NCBI RefSeq assembly: GCF_029714365.1
Contig: NZ_CP121660.1
Span: forward strand, 372,001-436,000
From: Sinorhizobium terangae
Lineage (GTDB): Bacteria; Pseudomonadota; Alphaproteobacteria; Rhizobiales; Rhizobiaceae
DNA: 64,000 nt
Reading direction: 5' to 3'
This document shows positions 30,712-52,088 of the stretch, piece by piece. The number at the start of each line of letters is the position of its first letter. The first letter of the stretch is position 1. The notes beneath the pieces were generated by a model, which saw only the letters and a program-made list of their open reading frames with translations, was not told the DNA's origin and did no database searches. The position numbers and the translations under genes are program-made.

Positions 30712-31611
30712 ATGTCTCTTCCCCATCTTCGGCGGCTTGAAGCCGAAGCAATTCATGTTATTCGAGAAGTCGTTGCAACGTTTTCCAACCCGGTCGTGCT
30801 TTACTCCATTGGCAAGGACTCATCGGTCTTGCTGCACTTGGCGATGAAGGCGTTCTATCCGGCCAAGCCGCCCTTTCCCTTTCTCCATGTGGACACCAAA
30901 TGGAAGTTCCGGGAGATGATCGAGTTTCGCGACCGGATGGCACGCGAGCTTGGGTTCAACCTTCTGGTGCATGTCAATCAGGACGGGATCGATCAGGGCA
31001 TTGGGCCGTTCACGCACGGATCCAATATCCATACCCACGTCATGAAGACGATGGCGCTCAGGCAGGCGCTGGAGAAATACGGGTTCGACGCGGCGCTCGC
31101 AGGAGCACGGCGCGACGAGGAGAAGTCGCGGGCCAAGGAGCGCATCTTCTCCATCCGCAGCGCCCAGCACGGCTGGGACCCCAAGCGCCAGCGCCCCGAG
31201 ATGTGGAAGACCTACAACACGCGGGTCGGCCAGGGCGAGACGATGCGGGTCTTCCCGCTTTCCAATTGGACCGAGTTCGACATCTGGCAGTATATCCTGC
31301 GCGAGAACATACCGATCGTGCCGCTCTATTTCGCAGCCCGGCGGCCGGTGGTGAAGCGCGACGGCATGCTGATCATGGTGGATGATCACCGCATGCCGAT
31401 CCAGCCCGACGAGGCGGTCGAGGAGCGCCTGGTGCGTTTCCGCACGCTTGGCTGCTACCCACTGACCGGGGCGGTTGAATCCGAGGCTGCCACGCTTCCG
31501 GACATATTGCGGGAAATGCTCACGGTGCGCACGTCCGAACGGCAGAGTCGCCTGATCGACACGGACGAGGTCGGGGCGATGGAGAAAAAGAAGCGGGAGG
31601 GGTACTTCTGA
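30712..31611 (+). CDS. cysD: Sulfate adenylyltransferase, small subunit (CysD/NodP)
   Basis: CysD makes adenosine 5'-phosphosulfate from ATP and sulfate together with the CysN GTPase. The 299-residue length equals that of NodP. The PP-loop appears as SIGKDSS (residues 32-38). Family stretches include [42 protein letters not shown] and the C-terminal [26 protein letters not shown]. The stop overlaps the next start (TGATG). There are no nodulation genes nearby, so a cell-surface or general sulfation role is likelier than Nod-factor sulfation. A sulfotransferase gene lies 26 kb downstream. Confidence 0.95.
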
Positions 31612-33512
31612 TGTCGTATCTTCAAACCATGCCGCCGCATGACATCGAGGCGCATCTGGCCGAGCACGACAACAAGTCGATCCTGAGATTCATCACCTGC
31701 GGCTCTGTCGACGACGGCAAGTCGACCCTGATCGGACGCTTGCTTTACGATGCGAAGCTGATCTTCGAGGATCAGTTGGCAAATCTCGGCCGCGTCGGCA
31801 GTCCAGGCGCCGCCAACGGGAAGGAGATCGATCTGGCCCTGCTTCTCGATGGGCTCGAGGCCGAGCGTGAACAGGGCATCACAATTGATGTCGCCTACCG
31901 CTATTTCGCCACGTCGAAGCGCAAGTTCATCGTCGCCGATACGCCCGGCCACGAGGAATATACGCGCAACATGGTGACCGGCGCTTCGACCGCGGATCTC
32001 GCCATCATCCTGATCGACAGCCGCCAGGGTATTCTGCAGCAGACACGGCGCCATTCATATATCGCGTCGCTGCTCGGCATCCGGCATGTCGTGCTGGCGG
32101 TCAACAAGATCGACCTGGTCGATTTCCGCCAGCAGGTATTCGACGAGATCGTCGAAGACTACCTGGTCTTTGCCAAGGAACTCGGCTTTGCCAGTATCCG
32201 GCCGATCCCGATTTCCGCCCGTTACGGCGACAATGTCATCTCGGCTTCCGCGAACACGCCCTGGTACAAGGGGCCGGCTCTGCTTGATTATCTGGAGACG
32301 GTTGAACTCGACCCGACCGATCGGGAGAAGCCGTTCCGTTTCCCGGTCCAAATGGTCATGCGGCCGAATGCGGATTTCCGCGGCTATGCCGGACAGGTTG
32401 CGTCCGGCAGGATCTCGGTCGGCGATCCGGTGGTCGTCGCGAAATCCGGGCAACGCTCATCGGTCAAGGCGATCGTCACCTATGACGGCAACCTCAAGAC
32501 GGCGGGGGAGGGCGAGGCTGTAACGCTCATGCTTTCGGACGAAGTCGACGCCTCGCGCGGCAACATGCTCGTCGCCCCCGGCTCGCGACCATTCGTGGCG
32601 GACCAGTTCCAGGCGCATGTTATCTGGTTCGACGCCAATGCGATGATGCCCGGGCGCAGCTATATCCTCAGGACCGAGACGGACAGCGTCAGCGCGACCG
32701 TCACGACGCTCAAGCACCAGGTCAACATCAACAGCTTCATCCGCGAGGCGGCGAAGTCGCTGCAGATGAACGAAGTGGGCGTGTGCAACATCTCGACGCA
32801 GACGCCGATCGCCTTCGATGCCTACAATGACAACCGGTCGACAGGCAATTTCATCTTCGTCGATCGGGTGACGAACGCAACCGTCGGCGCCGGGATGATC
32901 GACTTCCCGCTGCGCCGCGCCGACAACGTCCATTGGCATGCGCTCGAGGTGAACAAGGGCGCGCGCAGCGCGATGAAGAACCAGCGCCCTGCCGTGCTTT
33001 GGTTCACCGGCCTTTCCGGTTCCGGCAAGTCGACGATCGCGAACACGCTGGACCGGATCCTGCATGCGCGCGGCAAGCACACCTATCTGCTCGACGGCGA
33101 CAACGTGCGCCACGGGCTCAATCGGGACCTCGGCTTTACCGAGGAGGATCGCGTCGAGAACATCCGTCGCGTGGCCGAGGTCGCCAAACTCATGGCCGAT
33201 GCCGGCCTGATCGTGCTCGTCTCCTTCATTTCTCCGTTCCGCGACGAACGCCGCATGGCGCGAGAACTGATGGACGAGCGCGAGTTCATCGAGATATTCG
33301 TCGATACCCCGCTCGATGAGTGTGCGCGGCGCGATCCGAAAGGGCTCTACGAGAAGGCACTCGCCGGCAAGATCGCGAACTTCACCGGCGTGTCCTCGCC
33401 CTATGAGGCCCCGGAGAATCCGGAATTGCATCTGCGGACGGTCGGCCATGAGCCGATCGATCTGGCGCTTGAGATCGAGGAATTCCTCGACCGGCTGATG
33501 GAGGACAAATGA
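31611..33512 (+). CDS. cysNC: Bifunctional sulfate adenylyltransferase subunit 1/APS kinase (CysN-CysC, NodQ-like)
   Basis: This 633-residue fusion makes PAPS. The N-terminal GTPase part (to about residue 440) has G1 GSVDDGKST at 31-39, the effector-region Thr in [12 protein letters not shown]3 DTPGH and G4 NKID, followed by the elongation-factor-like beta barrels. The C-terminal APS kinase has Walker A GLSGSGKS at 467-474, then [17 protein letters not shown] and [16 protein letters not shown]. The domain order is that of NodQ and other rhizobial CysN-C fusions. It overlaps cysD by one base and cysQ by four (ATGA), so the three are translated together. Confidence 0.96.
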
Positions 33513-34318
33513 CGCCCCTTTGCGAAGTGCTTGAACGCATTGCGCTCGACGCCGGAGCGGCGATTCTCGATGTTTATGACGCCGGCCCCAATGTTTCCTA
33601 CAAGGACGACCAGTCGCCCGTCACCGAGGCGGACGAACGAGCCGAAGCCATCATCCTCGACAGGCTGGCGGCCGCCTTTCCGCACACTCCCGTCGTTGCC
33701 GAAGAGGCGGTGGCGTCGGGTCGCGTTCCCGACATCAGCAGCGGCTGCTTCTTTCTGGTCGACCCGCTCGACGGGACGAAGGAGTTCATCAACCGACGCA
33801 ACGACTTCACCGTCAACATCGCTCTCATCGAGGGGAATGTGCCGATCGCGGGCATAGTCTATGCGCCTGCGCAGCGCTGCGCCTATGTCGCCGATGCTGG
33901 CCGGGCGCAAAAGCTTCTCCTTTGCCAAGATTGGAAGGTCGAGCAGAGGCAGGCGATCCGGGTGCGGACGCGCGGCGCCGCGCTGACGGCCGTTGCCAGC
34001 CGCTCGCACGGAAGTTTCGAGACCGAGGCGTTCCTAGCCGGTCACGGCGTGACCGACTTTGCGTCGGTCGGGTCTTCGCTGAAGTTCTGCCTGCTCGCCG
34101 AAGGCAAGGCCGACGTCTATCCGCGCTTTGGCCGAACGATGGAGTGGGACACGGCGGCCGGCGATGCGGTGCTGAAGGCCGCGGGCGGATCGGTGGTGCG
34201 GTTGGATGGCTCGCGCCTGCTCTATGGCAAGACGAGGCAGGACAGCGATAGCGACTTTGCAAACCCGCATTTCATCGCCTGGGCGGACATGTCCACCGCT
34301 CCGCCTGTCCAATGCTGA
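33509..34318 (+). CDS. cysQ: 3'(2'),5'-bisphosphate nucleotidase CysQ
   Basis: CysQ removes the 3'-phosphate of PAP, the product left by sulfotransferases, and may also tune PAPS levels. The 269-residue protein belongs to the inositol monophosphatase superfamily. It has [15 protein letters not shown] (metal site region), VVAEEAV, and the [12 protein letters not shown] motif with the metal-binding aspartates; the C-terminal metal Asp is in [17 protein letters not shown]. The overlap with cysNC (ATGA) shows that PAPS synthesis and PAP removal are expressed together, which is expected where a PAPS-dependent sulfotransferase is active. Confidence 0.93.
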
Positions 34319-34402: not shown

Positions 34403-35143
34403 ATGGACGGGCAAGGGAAAACGCGCACTGGCAAGCCTGTGTTCTGTCGTTTTCGGGATCTCAGCCGAGAGCACTTGAATGTCGAGCTGCAGGTCCACAC
34501 CAGCTGGACCGATGGGCAGGCGACGGCGCTTGAGATCCTGCAAACGGCCAAGCAACGCGGTCTCGCTGAGCTTGCCTTCACGGAGCACGTCCGAGAAGAC
34601 ACCTCGTGGTTTCCTGACTTCAAGGCCGAGATTCTCTCCGCTGCGCGCCGGTTTGATGATTTGCGCGTCTATGTCGGCTGTGAAACGAAAGCCATGGACG
34701 ACAATGGCCGGCTGGATGTGTCGCAGTCCGTGCTTGACGCGTGCGACATCGTTCTCGGCGTCGTTCACCGATTCCCGGACGGCCACGGCGGTTATCTGGA
34801 TTTCAAACAACTGTCATTCGATGAGACGTCCGAAATCGAATTCCGGCTGTCGATGGGAATGATCGCAAGTGCGCCGATCGACGTGCTTGGTCACCCGGGT
34901 GGCATGAGCCTGAGGCGGCATGGCCGGTTTCCGGAGTCATATTTTCGCGCGTTGATGACGGCGACGCTCGAGCGGGGGATCGCGATCGAGATCAACTCCT
35001 CGTATCTCGTCGATATGCCGGCATTTCTGGCCTTGTGCGAAGAGGTCAACCCGTTTGTTTCGATCGGTTCTGATGCGCACAAGTTGAGCGAATTGGGCCG
35101 CTGCAGGGATCAGCTCATTGAACTGGGGGTAGGGCGATCATGA
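34403..35143 (+). CDS. PHP-domain phosphoesterase-like protein
   Basis: This 246-residue protein has the polymerase-and-histidinol-phosphatase (PHP) fold, usually a trinuclear metal phosphoesterase. Motifs in order are VELQVHTSWTDG (residues 27-38), FTEHVRED, the CETK segment, VVHRFPDG, DVLGHPGG, and the closing SIGSDAHKL. The first histidine of the usual HxH is Gln30 (QVH), so one metal ligand is changed; the rest of the site is present. The substrate is unknown. Its stop overlaps the ATP-grasp start (ATGA), and it follows cysQ by 84 bases. The N-terminal start is uncertain because the ribosome site is weak. Confidence 0.8.
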   Translation: MDGQGKTRTGKPVFCRFRDLSREHLNVELQVHTSWTDGQATALEILQTAKQRGLAELAFTEHVREDTSWFPDFKAEILSAARRFDDLRVYVGCETKAMDDNGRLDVSQSVLDACDIVLGVVHRFPDGHGGYLDFKQLSFDETSEIEFRLSMGMIASAPIDVLGHPGGMSLRRHGRFPESYFRALMTATLERGIAIEINSSYLVDMPAFLALCEEVNPFVSIGSDAHKLSELGRCRDQLIELGVGRS

Positions 35144-36132
35144 AGGTGTTCATCACGGGTGCAGGCGCCCTCCTTGGGCAAGGCATCATTCGCGCCTTGC
35201 GGCGTTCGACCCTGAAGGCGACGATAATCGTCGGCGACCCGAGCCCGCTCTCGGCCGGCCTGTACTGGGGCGATGTCGCCTACCTCGTCCCGATGGCGAA
35301 GGACCCTGAATATCTGGACAGCCTGGGCGAGCTGCTGCGTGCCGAGCGGCCCGACATCCTCATCCCCGGAACCGATGTGGAGCTGCCAATCCTTGCAGCG
35401 AACCGCGAGATGATCGAGAGGGCCTACGGAACCAAGGTGATCATCAGTTCGCCGCATGTGGTCTCGATCGCGAACGACAAATGGCTCACCTCCGAGTTCC
35501 TCCGGGAGCGGAGACTGGGGTTCGTTCCTTCGTGTTTGCCGGGTGATGAGGAGACGCTGATCGAACGGTGCGGCTTTCCCCTCGTCGTCAAGCCCCGGGT
35601 CGGCGCCAGGTCAATCGGCTTCAGCGTCGTACGCAACCGGGAGCAATTGAGGCGAGCCATAGCCGAGCAGCCCGACATCGTTATCCAGAAATATGTCGGC
35701 TCGGATGCGACCGAGTATACCGCCGGCACGCTGACCTTCGATGGAAAATGCCGCGCGACAATCGTCATGCGAAGAGACCTTCGGGACGGCAACACCTACA
35801 GGGCCTTTGCCGAGCCCTTTCCCGCCTTGAACAAGGCAATGGCAGAGGCAGCCGACGCTCTTGGCGCCTATGGTCCGGCGAACTTTCAGTTTCGTCTGGA
35901 CGATGGCTTTCCCCGCATTTTCGAGATCAATGCGCGGTTTTCGGGCACCACGGCAGTCCGGATCCATGCAGGGTTCAACGAGGTGGAGATGTCGATCCGG
36001 CATATCCTTTTTGGCGAGCCAGTCGAGCAGCCGGACATCATGCCGGTGACGATATTGCGGCACTGGTCGGAGACCGTCGTAAGACCCGGCGAATTGATCA
36101 CGGCCACCGGGCGGCTGCAGGAAGAAGTCTAG
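35140..36132 (+). CDS. ATP-grasp enzyme of unknown substrate (carbamoyl-phosphate-synthase-like)
   Basis: This 330-residue protein has a Rossmann-like pre-domain (MKVFITGAGALLGQGIIRAL) and an ATP-grasp domain. The ATP-grasp part includes NDKWLTSEFLRERRLGFVPS, FPLVVKPRVGARSIGFSVV, VIQKYVGSDATEYTAGTL and the metal/ATP end motif FQFRLDDGFPRIFEINARFSGTT. This layout is that of PylC/CarB-like carboxylate-amine or carboxylate-thiol ligases, which go through an acyl phosphate. It is coupled to the PHP gene by an ATGA overlap and is followed by an SDR gene. No operon of this exact set is familiar to me. It could modify a small molecule or a sugar residue. Confidence 0.82.
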   Translation: MKVFITGAGALLGQGIIRALRRSTLKATIIVGDPSPLSAGLYWGDVAYLVPMAKDPEYLDSLGELLRAERPDILIPGTDVELPILAANREMIERAYGTKVIISSPHVVSIANDKWLTSEFLRERRLGFVPSCLPGDEETLIERCGFPLVVKPRVGARSIGFSVVRNREQLRRAIAEQPDIVIQKYVGSDATEYTAGTLTFDGKCRATIVMRRDLRDGNTYRAFAEPFPALNKAMAEAADALGAYGPANFQFRLDDGFPRIFEINARFSGTTAVRIHAGFNEVEMSIRHILFGEPVEQPDIMPVTILRHWSETVVRPGELITATGRLQEEV

Positions 36133-36165
36133 GCGGCCAGCACGGGAAGGCGAGGTTCGACACAG

Positions 36166-37101
36166 ATGCAGCTCGTTGTTACCGGCGCGACAGGCTTTAT
36201 CGCTTCGAGACTGATCGGTCAGGCACTTTCAAAAGGGTACCAGGTCATCGCCCTTGCGCGCGACCCGGATCGTGTGACGTGGAGAAAAAGCTCTCGTTTG
36301 CAGATCGAGAAATGGTCGATTGGTGACCCATTGCCGGCGGTGACGCAAGCGGACGCGGTTTTCCATCTTGCCGCTTATATTCCAGCCGATTTCAGCGATC
36401 CGCGTCAGGCCGCGAGATGCTTCGAGGTCAACACCAACGGTGCCTTGCGGTTCGCGATGGATGCCGCCTCGCAGGGCGTGAAGCGGTTTGTGTTTTTCGG
36501 ATCGGGACAGGTTTACACGCCCGCTTCCGAGTCGGCGTCGGAGACAAGCGCCGCCTTTCCCGTGCATCGCGCCAGTTATTACCTGGCGAGCAAGCTCTCG
36601 GCGGAAATTTGCCTGCTGGCTTTCGGAACGGCAAACACCATGCCGGTAACGGTGCTTCGCCTCGCATCCGTTTATGGTCCCGGTATGCATGGCTCGGGGA
36701 TGATACCGACGTTCATCCGCACGCTCGGGAGTGGGCGCCCTGTGGCCATACGGGATGGGGGACGATATCGCGTCGATCTTGTCTACGTCGACGACGTCAT
36801 CTCGCTTGCTCTGGCGGCGGTCGAGAAGGAACAGGCGGGGATATTTAATGCGGGCAGCGGCCAGGCCTGCAGGTCGCTGGAAGCGGCAGAAATCATCGCC
36901 GACGCGCTTGGAGCGGACCCGGATCTCGTCAACGTTGAAGGCGCGAGGTCGGATGAGACCATGATGGGTTTTGCTGCTTTGAACGTGGCAAAGGCGGTTG
37001 ACCAGTTAGGATACATCCCGCGCTCTTTCCGCCAAGGCATTGAAGCATGGAAAGCAGAGACAGGGTTTTCGGACTTCCAGAGCGCCAGCAGTCAAGAATA
37101 G
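36166..37101 (+). CDS. NAD-dependent epimerase/dehydratase (extended SDR)
   Basis: This 311-residue protein is an extended short-chain dehydrogenase of the nucleotide-sugar epimerase type. It has the Rossmann motif VVTGATGFIASRLI (TGxxGxxxS/A) at the N-terminus, VFHLAAYIPADF, the FGSGQVY region with the active-site Ser/Tyr equivalents, and YxxxK as YYLASK. The RLASVYGPGM and VDLVYVDDVISLAL stretches are also typical. Substrate cannot be told; a nucleotide-sugar role would suit the adjacent polysaccharide genes. GAGG lies about ten bases before the ATG. It ends before a strong hairpin. Confidence 0.87.
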   Translation: MQLVVTGATGFIASRLIGQALSKGYQVIALARDPDRVTWRKSSRLQIEKWSIGDPLPAVTQADAVFHLAAYIPADFSDPRQAARCFEVNTNGALRFAMDAASQGVKRFVFFGSGQVYTPASESASETSAAFPVHRASYYLASKLSAEICLLAFGTANTMPVTVLRLASVYGPGMHGSGMIPTFIRTLGSGRPVAIRDGGRYRVDLVYVDDVISLALAAVEKEQAGIFNAGSGQACRSLEAAEIIADALGADPDLVNVEGARSDETMMGFAALNVAKAVDQLGYIPRSFRQGIEAWKAETGFSDFQSASSQE

Positions 37102-37238: not shown

Positions 37239-38402
37239 TCAGGCGAAGAGGAAGTCGCTTCTCGAAAAATTGGCGGCGCTGAGGGTGCCGTTGGGGTCGT
37301 CCACGAGAATCGAAAACGCGTGACCGGCAGAGTCGTGACCCTTTATCAGCACGTCGCCGCCGGAGGTGTCGTAGGCATACACGGTCCCATTGGCGCCGGA
37401 GCTGGAATACTGGGTAACCCCGAGTTTTTCGATAACCAGGAAATCGACGCCATCCTGGAAATCCATGACGGTGTCTTGGCCACTAAGCGCCGGCGTCGCC
37501 TTGAAGACGAAGCGGTCGGAATCCGCTCCGCCCCATAGGATATCGCTTCCAGCTTCGCCAAGGAGAACGTCGCTCCCCGCATCGCCGCGAACCGTGTCGT
37601 TGCCATCACCACCAAAAACGGTGTCGTTGCCGATGCCACCGTCGAGGACGTCGTCCCCGGCTTCGCCCGAGATGGCATCATTGCCGGCGTCCCCGTACGC
37701 GAGATCGTTCCCGGCGCCGACCTCGATCCTGTCAGCGCCGGCTCCGCCATGGGCCTCGTCTATGCCGGTTTCCGAGTCGAGAATGTCATTCCCGTCCCCG
37801 CCGTCCAGGTAGTTGTTCCCATCGCCACCATCAACGATGTCATCGCCGATGCCGCCATCGACCCGGTCATTGCCGGACTGGCCTTTGAGAACGTCGTTGC
37901 CCTCTTCACCGTAGATCTTGTCATTGCCGGCGCCGCCGCCGACCGCCTGCTGCGTGACCTTTCCGGTCGCCGGATTTACGCGATTGTTGAACCCGTCATT
38001 TCCTGAGCCGGCGTAGATGATATCATCACCCTCGCCCGCATCGATGTATTCCTCGCCTGCGCCGCCAAAGATCTTGTCGTGTCCGCGACCGCCAAGGATC
38101 TGGTCATGGCCGTCGCCGCCATCCAGGATGTCGCTGCCATCGCCGCCGTCAAAGATGTCGTTTCCTAGTCCGCCCTTGAGTGTGTCGTTACCCAAGCCGC
38201 CGGCAAAGCGATCGTTTCCGTCGTCACCGTCGGCATAGTCGTCGCCGTCGCCGCCGACAATGTAATCGTTACCAAGGCCGCCGAAGATCTTGTCGTTGCC
38301 TGCTCCGCCGTCGAGATAGTCATCGCCGGCATAGCCCCAAAGCTCGTCGTCGCTGAGAGCGCCGCGGATCGTGTCGGACAGACTGGTTCCTTTAAAAATC
38401 AT
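37239..38402 (-). CDS. RTX calcium-binding protein, type I secreted
   Basis: This 387-residue protein is almost wholly RTX nonapeptide repeats (GGxGxDxxx), starting near residue 20. More than twenty near-consensus copies form parallel beta-roll blocks that bind calcium outside the cell. One insert (NNRVNPATGKVTQQA, about residue 145) breaks the array. The C-terminus (FVFKATPALSGQDTVMDFQDG, then a hydrophobic end) resembles the serralysin-type secretion domain recognised by ABC-type secretion systems. The start at 38402 has AGGAG six bases upstream; ATGs at 38405 and 38408 are too close. No type I secretion genes are in the window. Its position next to the polysaccharide genes hints at a role in the surface matrix. 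Confidence 0.88.
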   Translation of the reverse strand: MIFKGTSLSDTIRGALSDDELWGYAGDDYLDGGAGNDKIFGGLGNDYIVGGDGDDYADGDDGNDRFAGGLGNDTLKGGLGNDIFDGGDGSDILDGGDGHDQILGGRGHDKIFGGAGEEYIDAGEGDDIIYAGSGNDGFNNRVNPATGKVTQQAVGGGAGNDKIYGEEGNDVLKGQSGNDRVDGGIGDDIVDGGDGNNYLDGGDGNDILDSETGIDEAHGGAGADRIEVGAGNDLAYGDAGNDAISGEAGDDVLDGGIGNDTVFGGDGNDTVRGDAGSDVLLGEAGSDILWGGADSDRFVFKATPALSGQDTVMDFQDGVDFLVIEKLGVTQYSSSGANGTVYAYDTSGGDVLIKGHDSAGHAFSILVDDPNGTLSAANFSRSDFLFA

Positions 38403-38663
38403 CATCATCTCCTAGCTGTTGCAGGAGGGCCGATAATTTGAGAATGGGGCGCAAAAGTGATCCCAGCCTCAAAGACGCCCATCGACGCAGAAGACGCAGT
38501 ATTTTACAGTGGAAAAGTTAATGATACTACTTATCTTAGAATATTTCAACGCTCCTCAACTGCGCTCAAGACGGGAAAAGCGAACATCATTTCTTTAAGA
38601 TTCAGCAATTTTACCGGGAAATGCAATGAATCGATGGACGATGATTGCATGCGAGAGTCTGCT

Positions 38664-39776
38664 TTAATGCATTAGAAACTCTGCATATTTTTCCCTGATC
38701 GCATTGATCGCATACTCGTTTTCGACCCGCTCTCGGGCGGTGCGCGCATAGCGGGCATATTCGGTCGGCGAGAGGTCAAGGATTTCGCGGATCGCCTTGG
38801 CGAGTGCCTCGGGGTTGCGTGCAGGTACGGCAATGCCGGCCTTTCCCGCGACGGCGGCGGCATCGCCGACGTCCGTCGTGACGATCGGCTTGGCATAGCT
38901 CATCGCTTCTGCAATCACGTTGGGAAAACCCTCGGTCCTCGAAGACAGCACCAAGGCGTCGATGCTGCGGTAGTAGGAAGGCATGTCGGAGATCTCACCC
39001 TTGAGATCGACGGCATGTTCCGGCAAACCCGCTTCCGCCATCAGGTCGACGACAGCGCGGTTGTCGCGGGAAACCCCATTGCCCGCCGCAGAAAAGAGTG
39101 CGTGCGGATGCGTGTCGCGAACAGCGGCCACGGCTTTGAAGAATGTGCCGTGATCCTTCTGCGGATGAAATCGACCGACGATGCCGATCCGGCGGGCGGT
39201 TGTCGCCTCTGGGGGACCGATCCGCGGCAACTCGAAGCCGTTCGGAATGACAACCATGTTCCGGTTTACATAGCCGTAAGCCCGATGTAGCTCCAGGGCG
39301 CGCGTGCTGTTGTAGATGATGCCGGCCGGTTGGTTCGACAGCAGCTTTGCGCCCGCAATTGCGAGGCGTGAACTGCGCGTAAGCGAAGCGGGATCATCCA
39401 GGGACTGGCGAATGTTCCAGTAAACCGGTGCTTCACACCTGGCCATGCGCGCGGCGATCATGCCGGCGATCATCGCGTGGTACATCCAGCACAGGATTGC
39501 GTCGGGCCGCTCCTTGCGGATGAGTTGCGCGAGCGTGAGGACTGCGCCCGGAAGGGCGGCGAGGGAGCCGGCCGCCAGCGGCACATAGATAACTCTCGGA
39601 TTGTTGGCGAGATTGCGATTGCGATCCGACACGCCGATGAGCGAAACGACGATGATGCGCTCGTCGGTCGCACCGCGCAGGAGACGCGCCAGCATGGTCT
39701 CGGCGCCGGCGCTGGCGGTGAAGTTGGTAATGACATGCATCATCATCGCGGCGGCTCTGTGTTCGGCGATGCCCAT
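38664..39776 (-). CDS. Glycosyltransferase, family 4-like
   Basis: This 370-residue enzyme has the GT-B fold of family 4. The N-terminal acceptor domain begins MMMHVITNFTASAGAETML. The C-terminal nucleotide-sugar domain has RRIGIVGRFHPQKDH and the E-x7-E motif in SSRTEGFPNVIAEAM. It would add a sugar to a lipid-linked oligosaccharide at the cytoplasmic face of the inner membrane. The donor is unknown. A 42-base gap separates it from the next glycosyltransferase upstream, so the two are likely one unit. The downstream end falls in a 255-base gap before the RTX gene. Confidence 0.9.
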   Translation of the reverse strand: MGIAEHRAAAMMMHVITNFTASAGAETMLARLLRGATDERIIVVSLIGVSDRNRNLANNPRVIYVPLAAGSLAALPGAVLTLAQLIRKERPDAILCWMYHAMIAGMIAARMARCEAPVYWNIRQSLDDPASLTRSSRLAIAGAKLLSNQPAGIIYNSTRALELHRAYGYVNRNMVVIPNGFELPRIGPPEATTARRIGIVGRFHPQKDHGTFFKAVAAVRDTHPHALFSAAGNGVSRDNRAVVDLMAEAGLPEHAVDLKGEISDMPSYYRSIDALVLSSRTEGFPNVIAEAMSYAKPIVTTDVGDAAAVAGKAGIAVPARNPEALAKAIREILDLSPTEYARYARTARERVENEYAINAIREKYAEFLMH

Positions 39777-39818: not shown

Positions 39819-41045
39819 TCACTCGGTTAAGCGCATGCCGGCGAACAGCGTCCGATTGATCATGTGCACGTCGAATTTGGTCTCTGCGAGCTCCCGCGAG
39901 CGCTTGCCCATCTTTTCCGCCAAGTCCGGATCGCGGGCAAAGGACGCCATCGCATCGGCGAGCGCGACGATGTCGAGCGGCTTCACCGTCATGCCGTTCA
40001 CACCCGGCTGCACCGTGTCGCGGCAGCCCGGCAGGTCCGTCGTAATCACCGGCCTTCCGATCGCCAGCGCCTCGAGGATGCTCCGGGGAATACCTTCCCG
40101 GTAGTAGGAAGGCAGGACGAAAACATTGCAGGCTGACAGACAGGGCCGCACGTCATTGGTGGTGCCGAGATATTCGAGGATCCCTTCGCCCACCCAGCCT
40201 TCGATTTCCTCGCGCGAGATTGCCGTCGGATTGCAATCGAAATGGCCGAGCAGCTGGAACCTGGCTTCAGGAAAAGTGCGCCGCACGATCCGCGCGGCTT
40301 CGATATATTCGACGACGCCTTTGTCGCGCAGCAACCGTGCAATCATGAGGAAGACAGGCCCGCCGCGGGGCGCTCGCGCGTAGGCGAAATGCTTCAAATC
40401 GACGCCGGACCCTGAAATCATCGTCGGTGATATGCCGTCTCCAAGCATCCGGTAGCGGCGAATGTCCTCGGCATCGGCGTCGTTATAGACAAACACAACC
40501 CTCGCGCGCTTGAGCGCCGATCGATATAGCCGGACGCATAGCTGGCGAACGGCCAAAGCTTTGAACGAGCGACCGCCGGCGTCGGAGAAGACGTGGCCGA
40601 GACCCGTGACGAGGAAACACCGCTCCTTGATTCCGAGCGTCCGGGCGGCGAGGCCCGCATAGATGATCGGCTTCATCGTATAGGGAAGGACCATGTCCGG
40701 CTTCAGCCGCTTGAAGTGTTGCCGCAGCGACCAAAAGGTGCGGATGTCTTCAAGCGGGTTAAGACCGGTCCGGGCCATCGGAATGCGAACGAAGCGAACA
40801 CCGATTTCAGCGAGCTCCCGCTCCACTCGCTGGTCGTTTTCGGGAGCGAAGGCGATGACGTCATGGCCGGCGGCGACCATCCGTCTCAGCAATTCGAGCC
40901 GAAAGATCACGAGAGATGCCGTCAAGCTGGCGACGACGGCAATCACGCGTTTCTGCCGGGGCGGGTATGCTGCGTCGGCGGGTCTTGCCGACTGGCCCGC
41001 AATTTGTTCGGTTGCGGTGCGCGAAACCTGCTCAACAAGGTTCAA
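39819..41045 (-). CDS. Glycosyltransferase, family 4 (PglA/EpsD-like)
   Basis: This 408-residue GT-B enzyme resembles the family 4 transferases that act early on undecaprenyl-diphosphate sugars. After about 30 polar residues the fold starts RVIAVVASLTASLVIFRLELL; further on are DMVLPYTMKPIIYAGLAAR, FLVTGLGHVFSD, the donor domain ARLLRDKGVVEYIEAARIV, and LPSYYREGIPRSILEALAIGRPVI with the E-x7-E motif. The start is a TTG at 41045 with a strong GGGAGG site six bases upstream. A downstream ATG is far inside the protein, so this uncommon start is well supported. Confidence 0.9.
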   Translation of the reverse strand: MNLVEQVSRTATEQIAGQSARPADAAYPPRQKRVIAVVASLTASLVIFRLELLRRMVAAGHDVIAFAPENDQRVERELAEIGVRFVRIPMARTGLNPLEDIRTFWSLRQHFKRLKPDMVLPYTMKPIIYAGLAARTLGIKERCFLVTGLGHVFSDAGGRSFKALAVRQLCVRLYRSALKRARVVFVYNDADAEDIRRYRMLGDGISPTMISGSGVDLKHFAYARAPRGGPVFLMIARLLRDKGVVEYIEAARIVRRTFPEARFQLLGHFDCNPTAISREEIEGWVGEGILEYLGTTNDVRPCLSACNVFVLPSYYREGIPRSILEALAIGRPVITTDLPGCRDTVQPGVNGMTVKPLDIVALADAMASFARDPDLAEKMGKRSRELAETKFDVHMINRTLFAGMRLTE

Positions 41046-41260: not shown

Positions 41261-43471
41261 TTAACTGCCCGGAGAGCGGAACTCTGCGCGGGTGCCCTTG
41301 CGGCAGCCGGATCGCGATCCGCGCGCCTTGGCCTTGATGTGGTCCTTCGGCCGCCGCGGCAGGCGCTTACTCGCGGCCGCGGGCTTGCGATCAGCATCGT
41401 GCACATATCGTGGGAGCAGCTCGCGCATGACCGCCACGACGTCCGCCTCGTTGCCCCGCTCCGAATGGCGCTGCAGGCGTGCGAAGGCGTCCCTCAGCGT
41501 CGGCAATGGGATAGGCTCCGGAACGGCTCCGAGGACACCCGGGACCGGCGAGTTGATGCGCTTGTCGGTTTCGTCGAACAGCTCTTCGAAGAGCTTTTCG
41601 CCCGGGCGGCAACCGATGATCTTGATTTCGATATCCTGATCCGGCGTGAAACCGGCCAGCCGGATCATGCGGCGGGCGATATTGATGATCTTGATCGGCT
41701 CGCCCATGTCGAGGACGAAGATCTCGCCCTGTCCGAGCTGTTTCTCGAAACCGTAAGCGGAAGCCTGCAAAGTCAATTCGACGGCCTCGCGGATCGTCAT
41801 GAAGAAGCGTGTCATGTTCGGATCGGTTACCGTCAGCGGCCCGCCCCTGGCCAACTGGCGCTTGAAGAGCGGGATCAGCGAACCGCTCGACCCCAGCACG
41901 TTCCCGAAACGAACCGTCATGAAACGCGGCCCCCGGCCGGTCTCGAGACCGTTCAGGTCGAGCGCTTGGCAATAGAGTTCCGCCAGGCGTTTTGTCGCGC
42001 CCATGACGCTCGTCGAATTGACGACCTTGTCGGTCGAGATCTGAACCATGGCGAGCGTGCCGTATTTCTTCGCTGCATTGGCGACGTTCATGGTGCCGAT
42101 GACATTGGTGAGTACGCCCTCGCAGGGATTCAACTGCACCATGGGCACATGTTTCAGCGCCGCTGCATGAAAGACCAGCTCGGGTCGATGCTGAGCGAAG
42201 ATCTCCTCGACCCTCTGACTGCGGCGGACACTGCAGAGGTAACTCCACCGGGATACGGCCGGGAAGTTCTCGTTCAGGGCCATGTCGATCGCGTAAAGAT
42301 TGTATTCTGTGTTGTCGATCAGCACGAGTTCCGCCGGTTCGCAGGCGGCGACCTGCGTCGTCAGTTCGCTGCCGATCGAACCTCCTGCCCCGGTGATGAG
42401 CACGCGCCGGCCGCGAACGAGGCGCCCGATTGCCTCGCGGTCGAGCGACGCCTGGGGCCGCTCCAGGAGGTCGGTCAGTTCGATGGACCGCAGCTCGTAG
42501 GGGTTGTCGCCCTTTGCGCGCTTGAGTTCGGTCATCTGCGACAGGCGCGAGACAGCGATCCCAAGTCTTTCGGCGGACCGCAGGAGGTTATCCGATGCCT
42601 CCTCGCCGAACGCCGCGGGGGCTTCCGTGAAGACTACGTGACGCGGCTGCCTGTTGAGCTGCTGCAAATCCGCCACCACCTGCTCGAAATCCTCGATGCG
42701 TCCCGCAATCGGTACGCCGCGCAGGCTCATGCCGATCTGGTCCTCATTCCTGTCAAGGCAGGCAACCGGCACATAGGTGGCGTTGGGATCGCGTGCGAGC
42801 GCCCGCAAATAGAGGTCGGCCGCGTCGCCGGCGCCGACGAGCAACAACGGTATGCGGTGATCGTTATCTGCCCCTTTGTTGCGTCCGTTCCTGAAAACGG
42901 GCCGCGCCAGCGGGATCTCCTCAGCGCGAAAACTCAGCCGTGCTGCGGCAAGGAATGCGATCAGTAGCAGTGACTGCATCGGCACGACGGTCCGTGGAAT
43001 GTCAGTCAGCCTCGTGGAGAAGAATAGGAGCGAAACAAGCAGCAGGGATGTCAGGAGTACCGCGCGAAGTATGATGAAAAGGTCAGAAATGGAACCGTAC
43101 TTCCAGTTTCGGCTGTAGAGTCCGGACAAGGGAAAAACGAGTGCGCAGATGATGAGGTACTGTGCGCCCGACCATAACAGGACGGAGGCGGTTTCCGGTC
43201 TCGTCTTGAGCTCGGCCACGCCGTAGCGCAACAACAGGGCCACGGCGAGCGCAATGGCCGCTGATCCGAGATCGGCGAGGTACAGGGTAGAACATTTGTG
43301 AACGCTGCGAACAGCGCCGCGGATGCGTCGACTGCCTATGTCGACCGCCGCACCCCATACCGCCAACAGCATCTTGGCGGTGCTTTTTCCCGCCTCTTCT
43401 CTCCGCAATTTCGATGGCAGCATCAAGAAACGATCGCGAACTGCCTTAGCAGCGGTGTGTATACGCAGCAT
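41261..43471 (-). CDS. Membrane-bound nucleotide-sugar 4,6-dehydratase (WbpM/CapD/FlaA1 type)
   Basis: This 736-residue protein is of the long WbpM/PglF class that converts UDP-GlcNAc to a 4-keto-6-deoxy sugar, a precursor of diamino and amino sugars. Four membrane spans lie in about residues 65-185. A second Rossmann domain follows (LLLVGAGDAADLYLRAL). The dehydratase domain starts RVLITGAGGSIGSELT near residue 356. The active site reads STDKVVNSTSVMGATKR, with Met where soluble enzymes have Tyr, the S-M-K triad of the membrane class. The C-terminal tail of about 40 residues is very basic. The start at 43471 has AGGAAGGGG upstream; an earlier in-frame start is less likely. Confidence 0.93.
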   Translation of the reverse strand: MLRIHTAAKAVRDRFLMLPSKLRREEAGKSTAKMLLAVWGAAVDIGSRRIRGAVRSVHKCSTLYLADLGSAAIALAVALLLRYGVAELKTRPETASVLLWSGAQYLIICALVFPLSGLYSRNWKYGSISDLFIILRAVLLTSLLLVSLLFFSTRLTDIPRTVVPMQSLLLIAFLAAARLSFRAEEIPLARPVFRNGRNKGADNDHRIPLLLVGAGDAADLYLRALARDPNATYVPVACLDRNEDQIGMSLRGVPIAGRIEDFEQVVADLQQLNRQPRHVVFTEAPAAFGEEASDNLLRSAERLGIAVSRLSQMTELKRAKGDNPYELRSIELTDLLERPQASLDREAIGRLVRGRRVLITGAGGSIGSELTTQVAACEPAELVLIDNTEYNLYAIDMALNENFPAVSRWSYLCSVRRSQRVEEIFAQHRPELVFHAAALKHVPMVQLNPCEGVLTNVIGTMNVANAAKKYGTLAMVQISTDKVVNSTSVMGATKRLAELYCQALDLNGLETGRGPRFMTVRFGNVLGSSGSLIPLFKRQLARGGPLTVTDPNMTRFFMTIREAVELTLQASAYGFEKQLGQGEIFVLDMGEPIKIINIARRMIRLAGFTPDQDIEIKIIGCRPGEKLFEELFDETDKRINSPVPGVLGAVPEPIPLPTLRDAFARLQRHSERGNEADVVAVMRELLPRYVHDADRKPAAASKRLPRRPKDHIKAKARGSRSGCRKGTRAEFRSPGS

Positions 43472-43832
43472 GAAGGCCCCTTCCTGAAAAACTGTCAGCC
43501 TCACCGTCCGGCTCAACGACCTGCACCTTTCCCCCACAAACTAGATGGTGGCCGAAGGTTGCGGTCTATTGGTCTTGTCCCGTTGACTGGCTCGGGAGGC
43601 TAGATAAATTAACTTCAACAAAATATAAGCGACCGCGACTAATTAGGTCACGGTGCAAAATGTCCTTGGCATATTCGAATTCTGTAATAAAAAAGCATGT
43701 AATTAACTGGTTGTAAATAGTCTAGGACGGATCCCTCCAATTATAGTTTTCTGACAAACGGCTCGCTGGGTGTTTGGTCGTTTCCCTCCAGGCGAACGGC
43801 TCGCAAGAAACGGCAAAGCCCCGCATTGGCGG
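43472..43832. other. AT-rich gap upstream of the 4,6-dehydratase gene
   Basis: This 361-base gap has a clearly AT-rich stretch at about 43600-43740, in contrast with its neighbours. It should hold the promoter for the minus-strand 4,6-dehydratase gene. I see no protein-like frame and no clear terminator for the GtrA gene. Confidence 0.5.
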
Positions 43833-51182: not shown

Positions 51183-52088
51183 TTATCCTCGGAGTTTGCT
51201 GTGTACCGGCGGACGCTTGCCGGTGGCCGAGGCCCAAGCCAGGACATCGATGCATTCACCATCGCCACATAAGACGACGAAACCGCGTTCCGAATGGCAT
51301 TGAACCTGGCCTGCCAGTCCGATAAAGCGACCGGCGCTTTCAATCTTTACGGCTGTGTCGATGCGGATCCTCTCGCCGTTATAAACGCAAAACGCGCCGG
51401 GGTAAGGGGCGCCAACTGCACGGATAAGGCGGAGCACCGAGGCGGCTGAAGCATTCCAGTCGATCAGGCCGTCCTCTGCTGTACGCTTCGCACAGTAGCT
51501 TGCCTGCTCATGGTCCTGCTTCGTGTGCGGTGCGTTACCGGTCTCAACCAGCGCAACCGCCTCGACTACCATCTCGGCGAGATTTGCTGTGTGCCTGGCA
51601 TAGAGGCTGCGTGCGGTTTCGTCGGCCGCGACCGCGAACAGCCTCTGAAGCAGAATGGGACCAGAGTCGACCCCTTCATCCAACCAGAACAGCGTCGAGC
51701 CGGTCACATCTTCATCCCTTATTATCGTCCAGGGAATGACCGCCCGACCACGCAGACGTGGCAACGCCGCCGGATGGAACCCGATGGTGCCCTCCCGCGC
51801 AAGGTCCCGAAAAGGCTGCCGGCAGACTTGCGACCAGCCAATGACAAGCGTGAGATCAGGCTCGACCGATGCCATTGTCTCCAGGACTGCAGGACTGTTG
51901 ATGTCTGTGGTGTAGCAAACCGCGCTTCCGGCCGCCCGCGCCAGATTTCCTATATCGGCAAAATCGGAATGGCGTCCTGCCGCCTCGGGGGGCAGCGTAA
52001 TCACAAGCACAGGAACCCGCCCAGCCTGGATGAGCGCTTCTAAAGCGATTTTGGAGCTTTCGACGGAACCAACGAAAACGATACGCAT
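51183..52088 (-). CDS. Sugar N-formyltransferase-like protein
   Basis: This 301-residue protein has the N10-formyl-tetrahydrofolate formyltransferase fold (as in methionyl-tRNA and sugar N-formyltransferases). The Rossmann start is RIVFVGSVESSKIALEAL, and the C-terminal part (VLRLIRAVGAPYPGAFCVYNG) is the OB-like Formyl_trans_C type. The active-site loop reads GFHPAALPRLRGRAVIPW. His105 and Asp141 (DEGVDSGPIL) are present, but the asparagine that normally sits two residues before the His is Gly103. In a polysaccharide cluster it more likely formylates an amino sugar than tRNA. No sugar aminotransferase lies in the window. The start at 52088 is from the family N-terminus. Confidence 0.82.
   Translation of the reverse strand: MRIVFVGSVESSKIALEALIQAGRVPVLVITLPPEAAGRHSDFADIGNLARAAGSAVCYTTDINSPAVLETMASVEPDLTLVIGWSQVCRQPFRDLAREGTIGFHPAALPRLRGRAVIPWTIIRDEDVTGSTLFWLDEGVDSGPILLQRLFAVAADETARSLYARHTANLAEMVVEAVALVETGNAPHTKQDHEQASYCAKRTAEDGLIDWNASAASVLRLIRAVGAPYPGAFCVYNGERIRIDTAVKIESAGRFIGLAGQVQCHSERGFVVLCGDGECIDVLAWASATGKRPPVHSKLRG

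Follow-up and report, generated by a model that had tools for sequence, protein, structure and literature searches.

The window analysed here, a 64,000-nucleotide stretch of Sinorhizobium terangae DNA on contig 2 of a 6.63 Mb genome (G000), contains three consecutive genes that encode a PHP-type phosphoesterase, an ATP-grasp ligase and an extended short-chain dehydrogenase/reductase (SDR). The trio is a real unit: distant genomes keep its members together whether or not genes for sulfate activation are nearby, and the association is backed by gene fusions. The explanation that we favour, at somewhat better than even chances, is that the three enzymes N-acylate a sugar destined for a surface polysaccharide, in which the ATP-grasp enzyme would link a small acid to an amino sugar as an amide and the PHP protein would remove a phosphate. 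The three genes and their counterparts in Sinorhizobium meliloti are:

34403..35143, plus strand: PHP-type phosphoesterase, 246 aa; SMb21226 (tag assigned from gene order)
35140..36132, plus strand: ATP-grasp ligase, 330 aa; SMb21227
36166..37101, plus strand: extended SDR of the NAD-dependent epimerase/dehydratase family, 311 aa; SMb21228

The original prediction had described these genes as a row on one strand, with the first two coupled by an ATGA overlap, and both descriptions are accurate: the PHP gene stops at 35143 and the ATP-grasp gene starts at 35140. The SDR gene starts 33 nt past the ATP-grasp stop, and 84 nt separate the PHP gene from cysQ upstream. All three open reading frames are genuine genes, as indicated by conservation of the PHP protein within the genus, the same gene order on S. 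meliloti pSymB, and AlphaFold models (mean pLDDT 95.8 for PHP and 93.3 for ATP-grasp). The first protein belongs to the PHP superfamily on the evidence of both its Pfam match (PF02811, 46 bits against a cut-off of 26.4) and the PHP fold of its model. The second scores above the Pfam cut-offs for PF15632, PF21360 (PylC-like_N) and PF02655, and is a member of NCBIfam family NF009402 (453 bits; curated cut-off 218), a PRK12767-type family whose only name is 'carbamoyl phosphate synthase-like protein'. The SDR matches PF01370 with 149 bits and contains the glycine-rich NAD motif and YxxxK; its S. meliloti counterpart is described as a sugar epimerase (PMC5498481).

Within the genus the PHP gene is common: it was matched in 21 of 60 related genomes, all of them Sinorhizobium (21 of 32, the source genome included), with 76-90% identity in the 20 other carriers. 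It is also present in 85 plasmid records, of which 73 show 80-90% identity and 74 are named Sinorhizobium, and the gene order from cysD through a sugar 4,6-dehydratase is the same on S. meliloti pSymB. A scan of GTDB species contigs, using a PHP alignment and three peptide patterns, gave 36 loci; distant forms can escape such a scan, and its restriction to PHP-bearing loci under-samples ATP-grasps that lack PHP. These loci comprise 14 of Sinorhizobium type (L028-L041; L028, also S. terangae, has 98.7-100% protein identity to the window over ten genes), four of Rhizobium type (L042-L045) and 18 others, from cyanobacteria, Caldithrix, Bipolaricaulota, Paenibacillus, a deltaproteobacterium, Acidobacteriota, Elusimicrobia, an unplaced proteobacterium, Omnitrophota, Chloroflexi, an alphaproteobacterium, Nitrososphaerales and a clostridium. 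In 28 of the 36 loci, spread over ten phyla, an ATP-grasp gene on the same strand begins no more than 60 nt from the PHP gene; 24 of these 28 pairs have an SDR gene next, at a distance of up to 300 nt. Thus the recurrence in distant genomes that the original prediction had named as supporting evidence is observed, and PHP-ATP-grasp adjacency is still seen in 14 of 22 loci when the 14 closely related ones are set aside. Six of seven distant third-gene SDRs (L049, L051-L053, L055 and L056) score 78-109 bits against the window SDR, compared with 44-71 for seven other SDRs; the seventh, in L054, scores 61 bits, within the range of the other SDRs compared.

Eight loci are exceptions to the adjacency. 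L045 and L063 gave no ATP-grasp match, L057 has one intervening gene, in L058 a fragment of PHP lies at a distance of 2.6 kb, and in L059-L062 the ATP-grasps (25-27% identity) stand in other arrangements. In these last four loci, from Nitrososphaerales, a protein of about 560 aa is encoded after the distant PHP and before the ATP-grasp (L059:3121-4797, L060:3599-5284, L061:799-2487, L062:2974-4653); the 558-aa protein of L059 has zero Pfam or NCBIfam matches. At higher ranks the PHP protein was found in 1 of 385 genomes of the class (the source genome), and the ATP-grasp in 2 of 385 genomes of the class (the source and G125, an alphaproteobacterium of another family) and in 3 of 398 genomes of the phylum (source included). 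Because the family is both rare and patchy, its distribution suggests horizontal transfer.

Fusions join the same partners in single chains. An 812-aa query made of a sugar transferase, an ATP-grasp and a PHP domain was scored over residues 237-812, for which single-domain proteins are too short, and gave 69 hits. Forty-seven are PHP-ATP-grasp fusions of 448-605 aa (P0305 with a partial PHP domain), and the source names of five of these are Nanoarchaeota, Peregrinibacteria, Gribaldobacteria, Patescibacteria and Minisyncoccia. Another five join a PF02397 sugar transferase to the ATP-grasp, and 13 contain an ATP-grasp with another or no recognised partner; the remainder are two PolX proteins, one other protein and one apparent ATP-grasp-SDR fusion (P0306), which was excluded as evidence because an apparent frameshift where the two parts meet suggests that it may be a pair of neighbouring genes. 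Seven of the 13 carry the GNAT domain PF13480 (confirmed for P0242), and proteins of pfam13480 are described as aminoacyl-tRNA-dependent peptide ligases (PMC8976061). These GNAT-type partners hint that the acyl group in some relatives may be an amino acid.

Presumed active-site residues are conserved in both proteins, apart from one variable position in PHP. Eight PHP metal-site positions are invariant in all 43 aligned sequences and are kept in 46 or 47 of the 47 fusions (the difference being a gap or one D-to-E change), while at a further position, where the HxH motif has its first His, 29 of the 43 have Gln and 14 have His; we presume these nine positions to correspond to the metal ligands of active PHP enzymes. 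The frequent Gln is a difference from HisK/HisJ-type histidinol phosphatase and YcdX. In the ATP-grasp, all 88 sequences compared agree at seven positions, among them K114, K151, Q250, E262, N264 and R266, which we presume, by comparison with carbamoyl phosphate synthetase, to be catalytic lysines, metal ligands and an arginine of the active site. In a maximum-likelihood tree of 43 ATP-grasp rows, a chosen subset that includes 15 of the 66 ATP-grasp-bearing fusion hits (P0241-P0306), PHP-linked and PHP-fused forms occur throughout the core group; PHP-less forms (G125 with two transferase fusions, the GNAT fusions and two phage contigs) branch off within it next to the rhizobial group, and the transferase fusions fall in two separate places. 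The tree is rooted at its midpoint only and several inner forks are weak, so that we regard the PHP link as ancestral only tentatively.

Comparison with characterised families places the two enzymes near known proteins and outside their orthologous groups. Orthology to CarB, PylC or HisJ was rejected on curated cut-offs: the ATP-grasp scores 21.5 bits for the CarB large subunit (TIGR01369, cut-off 1027) and 22.6 bits for PylC, the 3-methylornithine-lysine ligase (TIGR03909, cut-off 248.3), and the PHP protein scores 21.1 bits for the HisJ-family histidinol phosphatase (TIGR01856, cut-off 90.2). The ATP-grasp resembles PylC in its PylC-like_N domain and in structure comparison, in which PylC, an amide ligase, is the second-nearest ATP-grasp fold.

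The fold of the PHP protein bears on a different explanation, in which it would be a tyrosine phosphatase of the CpsB/YwqE type acting on the BY-kinase that governs export of the polysaccharide, and would accompany the ATP-grasp only because both genes are located in polysaccharide islands. CpsB and YwqE have a PHP fold and a role in capsule regulation, and a Wzz-type chain-length gene, of a kind often fused to such a kinase, is present in the S. meliloti cluster and in L042. However, the model gives Z scores of 11.8-12.4 to CpsB/YwqE against 18.5-20.7 to HisK, PolX and YcdX, and the 47 fusions join PHP to an ATP-grasp, with no kinase domain in their Pfam listing. We regard this explanation as very improbable.

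The trio is part of a larger enzyme set consisting of a DegT aminotransferase, a PIG-L deacetylase, a formyltransferase, a sugar transferase and a 4,6-dehydratase, most of which lie outside 34403..37101 and some past the end of the window. The members of the set, together with two glycosyltransferases given as context, are:

41261..43537, minus strand: PglF/FlaA1-type sugar 4,6-dehydratase (PF02719, 361 bits), proposed source of a 4-keto sugar
51183..52088, minus strand: formyltransferase of Fmt/ArnA type in the same island (PF00551 and PF02911 above cut-off)
39819..41045, minus strand: GT4-type glycosyltransferase (PF00534, 97 bits)
38664..39776, minus strand: GT4-type glycosyltransferase (PF13692, 104 bits)
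C2:453778-454437 of G000, past the window end: PIG-L relative (76%)
C2:454542-455696 of G000, past the window end: DegT relative (84%)

The PIG-L and DegT genes (81778-83696 in window numbering) are on the replicon of the trio, some 18 kb after the window ends, and adjoin a PF02397 sugar transferase. Of the 14 Sinorhizobium-type loci, 13 have a match to the dehydratase, and L048, L049 and L056 have one of 34-36% identity close to their PHP-ATP-grasp pair; the window formyltransferase is 51% identical to one in the PHP-ATP-grasp gene row of L042. Similar company recurs elsewhere: among the 22 loci L042-L063, tblastn found DegT neighbours in 11, sugar transferases in 10, PIG-L in seven and formyltransferases in six. 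In Rhizobium L042-L044 the order is sugar transferase, formyltransferase, PIG-L, DegT, PHP, ATP-grasp and SDR, and L040, which unites this layout with that of Sinorhizobium, contains a contiguous series of sugar transferase, PIG-L, DegT, formyltransferase (on the opposite strand), cysD, cysNC, cysQ, PHP, ATP-grasp and SDR. In L051, L052, L053 and L055 the pair lies amid NeuB-, HisH- and WbpG-like genes, with NeuC-like genes in three of them; judged by their genes, these islands appear to be of the amino nonulosonic acid type, with NCBIfam names for L052 alone (NeuB 464 bits, NeuC 435, WbuX 364).

Two further groups of genes lie close to the trio or its island. An RTX-repeat calcium-binding protein is encoded beside the trio at 37239-38408 of the window (minus strand), and 12 of the 14 loci of Sinorhizobium type match it (all except L032 and L041); by gene order it is SMb21229 in S. 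meliloti. Past the window end but within the island, G000:C2:439560-442792 contains genes resembling those of a CDP-glucose pathway (cytidylyltransferase, 4,6-dehydratase and aminotransferase), as judged by eye only.

From the conserved active-site residues, the adjacency, the fusions and the neighbour set we infer the following course of N-acylation, including its substrates, the order of its steps and the role of the SDR. The PglF-type dehydratase and the DegT aminotransferase of the island would produce a 4-amino-4,6-dideoxy sugar bound to a nucleotide, and/or an amine would be freed by the PIG-L deacetylase. The ATP-grasp would then activate a small carboxylic acid, either a hydroxy or an amino acid, as an acyl phosphate and join it to the amine as an amide; the PHP protein would supply the acid by dephosphorylating a phospho-acid, or strip the phosphate after ligation. 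The SDR may adjust the sugar or the acyl part, and the sugar transferase would load the decorated sugar on its lipid carrier. This proposal is based on the PHP-ATP-grasp adjacency, on the 47 PHP and five transferase fusions, on the recurrent DegT, PIG-L, formyltransferase and transferase neighbours, on the amide-ligase chemistry of PylC, and on the four loci that lie among amino nonulosonic acid genes. Of the two possibilities raised by the original prediction, a carboxyl-linked modification of a sugar survives, as an amide decoration, as the best-supported reading, and the synthesis of a free small molecule finds little support.

The latter possibility, that the unit makes a free molecule such as a ligand or signal and is merely parked in sugar islands, would fit the nearness of PylC, PurK and other ATP-grasp folds, since enzymes of this kind make free metabolites. 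It would also fit the short Nitrososphaerales contigs L059-L062, which hold a distant PHP and ATP-grasp and in which 0 of 10 neighbour queries matched. The repeated company of sugar-nucleotide genes argues against it, as do the transferase-ATP-grasp fusions, which fall at two separate points of the tree, and we consider it improbable. The chemistry of ATP-grasp enzymes also allows the sugar to be either partner of the amide, and the ligase might instead activate the carboxylate of a uronic or nonulosonic sugar and join it to an amine or amino acid, with the PHP protein dephosphorylating the amine donor or the product. The four loci in nonulosonic acid islands are compatible with this reversed amide, as are the asparagine-synthetase-like amidotransferase between cysQ and PHP in L031, L033, L034, L035 and L039 and a gene of the UDP-glucose dehydrogenase family (Pfam) in the L042 neighbourhood, with relatives in L043 and L045. 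However, a UDP-glucose dehydrogenase query matched just 3 of 22 loci, all of Rhizobium type, and the recurrent DegT, PIG-L and formyltransferase make or use amines. The reversed amide is unlikely in our view, if less so than a free molecule.

Loci without PHP are relevant to its proposed part in N-acylation. In G125 the gene row consists of a sugar transferase, the ATP-grasp (60%), the SDR (39%), a calcineurin-like phosphoesterase (PF12850, PF00149), PIG-L and a formyltransferase, and a search of that genome with the PHP alignment, run without a positive control, gave no match. Since a calcineurin-like phosphoesterase occupies the same setting in G125, such a swap of phosphoesterase folds would point to phosphate removal as the task of the PHP protein, although this is one case; among relatives of G125, a match was found in 1 of 121, G125 itself. 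Two IMG/VR contigs of about 62 kb (L079:9770-14725 and L080:9935-14664) encode an ATP-grasp (50-52%), an SDR, a DegT aminotransferase and a further SDR, with no PHP gene alongside; a gene for a terminase large subunit (phrog_36964) is close by in L080.

Several points weigh against the N-acylation proposal. The island formyltransferase could acylate the same amine, and the substrates are assigned from gene context only. DegT and 4,6-dehydratase genes are common in polysaccharide islands, and the neighbour counts stand without a background rate. The calcineurin-like case is a single genome, in which the PHP search lacked a positive control. G125 and the two phage contigs have the ATP-grasp and SDR but no PHP next to them, so that PHP is not strictly needed. 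Conversely, in Ferirhizobium (L045:8990-10756) PHP lies beside a formyltransferase where an ATP-grasp of this family is absent, and a search of that genome, made without a control genome, gave no ATP-grasp match. Finally, the ATP-grasp of L050, counted among the 28 pairs, is highly divergent (22%), four of the 28 lack an SDR as the following gene, and distant SDRs share 24-31% identity.

The trio had been placed by the original prediction behind genes for sulfate activation, and these are found directly upstream, outside the unit:

30712..31611, plus strand: cysD/nodP-type sulfate adenylyltransferase subunit 2 (TIGR02039, 529 bits, cut-off 397)
31611..33512, plus strand: cysNC/nodQ-type sulfate adenylyltransferase/adenosine 5'-phosphosulfate (APS) kinase (NF004035, 1051 bits, cut-off 715)
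33509..34318, plus strand: cysQ 3'(2'),5'-bisphosphate nucleotidase (TIGR01331, 283 bits, cut-off 229)

Matches to cysNC and cysQ lie directly or one gene upstream of the trio in all 14 Sinorhizobium-type loci, and cysD was matched in 13 (L036 begins inside cysNC at a contig end, and in L034 cysD is in two pieces). The intervening amidotransferase mentioned above spans L031:7998-9959 in L031, is identified by Pfam in L031, L035 and L039, and has a relative in the Calothrix locus L047. No cysD match was found in L042-L063. Among these loci L053 (Elusimicrobia) has other sulfate-activation genes, namely an APS kinase, an ATP sulfurylase and a CysQ-like gene of the inositol-phosphatase family (L053:257-4176), 6-10 kb upstream of the trio; here, inside a NeuB-type island, the trio is paired with sulfate activation a second time, independently of the Sinorhizobium case. 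The unit thus occurs both with and without cysDNC, and because L053 is the only locus outside the Sinorhizobium type to have such genes, the trio is not tied to sulfate activation. The grouping with the sulfate-activation genes consequently stands as adjacency in the 14 Sinorhizobium-type loci and fails as membership, the set in L053 being a different one; cysDNC was rejected as a component of the unit. In Sinorhizobium, the trio and the sulfate genes would serve one polysaccharide, and a looser link of the trio to sulfated sugars may exist.

The closest described analogue, likened to the trio by setting and description, appears to be Neisseria PglB2, whose acylating domain we take to be an ATP-grasp. 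PglB2 functions in the N-acylation of a 4-amino sugar, and a glycerol moiety, in place of acetyl, is proposed to be added by its distinct C-terminal domain (PMC6959607). The two systems share an acylating domain tied to a sugar transferase, much as in the transferase-ATP-grasp fusions, with a 4,6-dehydratase and an aminotransferase upstream; they differ in that the available text of PMC6959607 mentions no PHP or SDR partner. G000 has the PglB2-type gene set in one island, with the dehydratase in the window and the DegT and PF02397 transferase past its end. Chemically, the trio would be a variant of known ATP-grasp acylation and not a new kind of system.

An orthologous cluster is known in S. 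meliloti. There, the genes from nodP2 (SMb21223) to SMb21248 span roughly 30 kb, and seven of them are induced by Clr; the proposed product of the cluster is an uncharacterised sulfated polysaccharide, named as a candidate among the signals by which root infection is controlled (PMC5498481). Its order, cysD/nodP2 and nodQ2, then cysQ, PHP, ATP-grasp and SDR, is that of the window; in the available text of that paper, the PHP and ATP-grasp proteins are given no role and the structure of the product is not known. The SMb21227 protein, listed under the name ATP-grasp, is up by log2 2.81 in phbC phaR over phbC under low phosphate and was undetected in TY (PMC12542648, Table 2). We found no description of the PHP and ATP-grasp unit in the portions of the open-licence literature available, including PMC12419801 and PMC8976061, and a prior mention is possible. 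The view that no described pathway has this combination accordingly holds for the unit itself within that literature, and is qualified by the known S. meliloti cluster (PMC5498481) and by the related PglB2 step (PMC6959607).

A broader and more speculative possibility, which we hold with distinctly less confidence than N-acylation as such, is that PHP and ATP-grasp are two halves of one widespread and as yet undescribed acylation machine, which would ligate a small phospho-acid to the amino sugar and dephosphorylate it by channelling; the single-chain fusions, whose few named sources are candidate-phyla bacteria and one Nanoarchaeota MAG, would be its complete form, and the rhizobial trio a split form serving a symbiosis-related sulfated polysaccharide.

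If the N-acylation proposal is correct, the trio would represent an enzymatic route for the N-acyl decoration of amino sugars that recurs in bacteria, extends to candidate-phyla bacteria, archaea and phage contigs, and could be recognised in genomes wherever a PHP gene adjoins a PRK12767-type ATP-grasp or is fused to it. A function would thereby be assigned to one branch of the family known as 'carbamoyl phosphate synthase-like protein', and the decoration of uncharacterised bacterial coat polysaccharides would find an explanation. In S. meliloti, it would add steps to the synthesis of the nodP2-SMb21248 polysaccharide.

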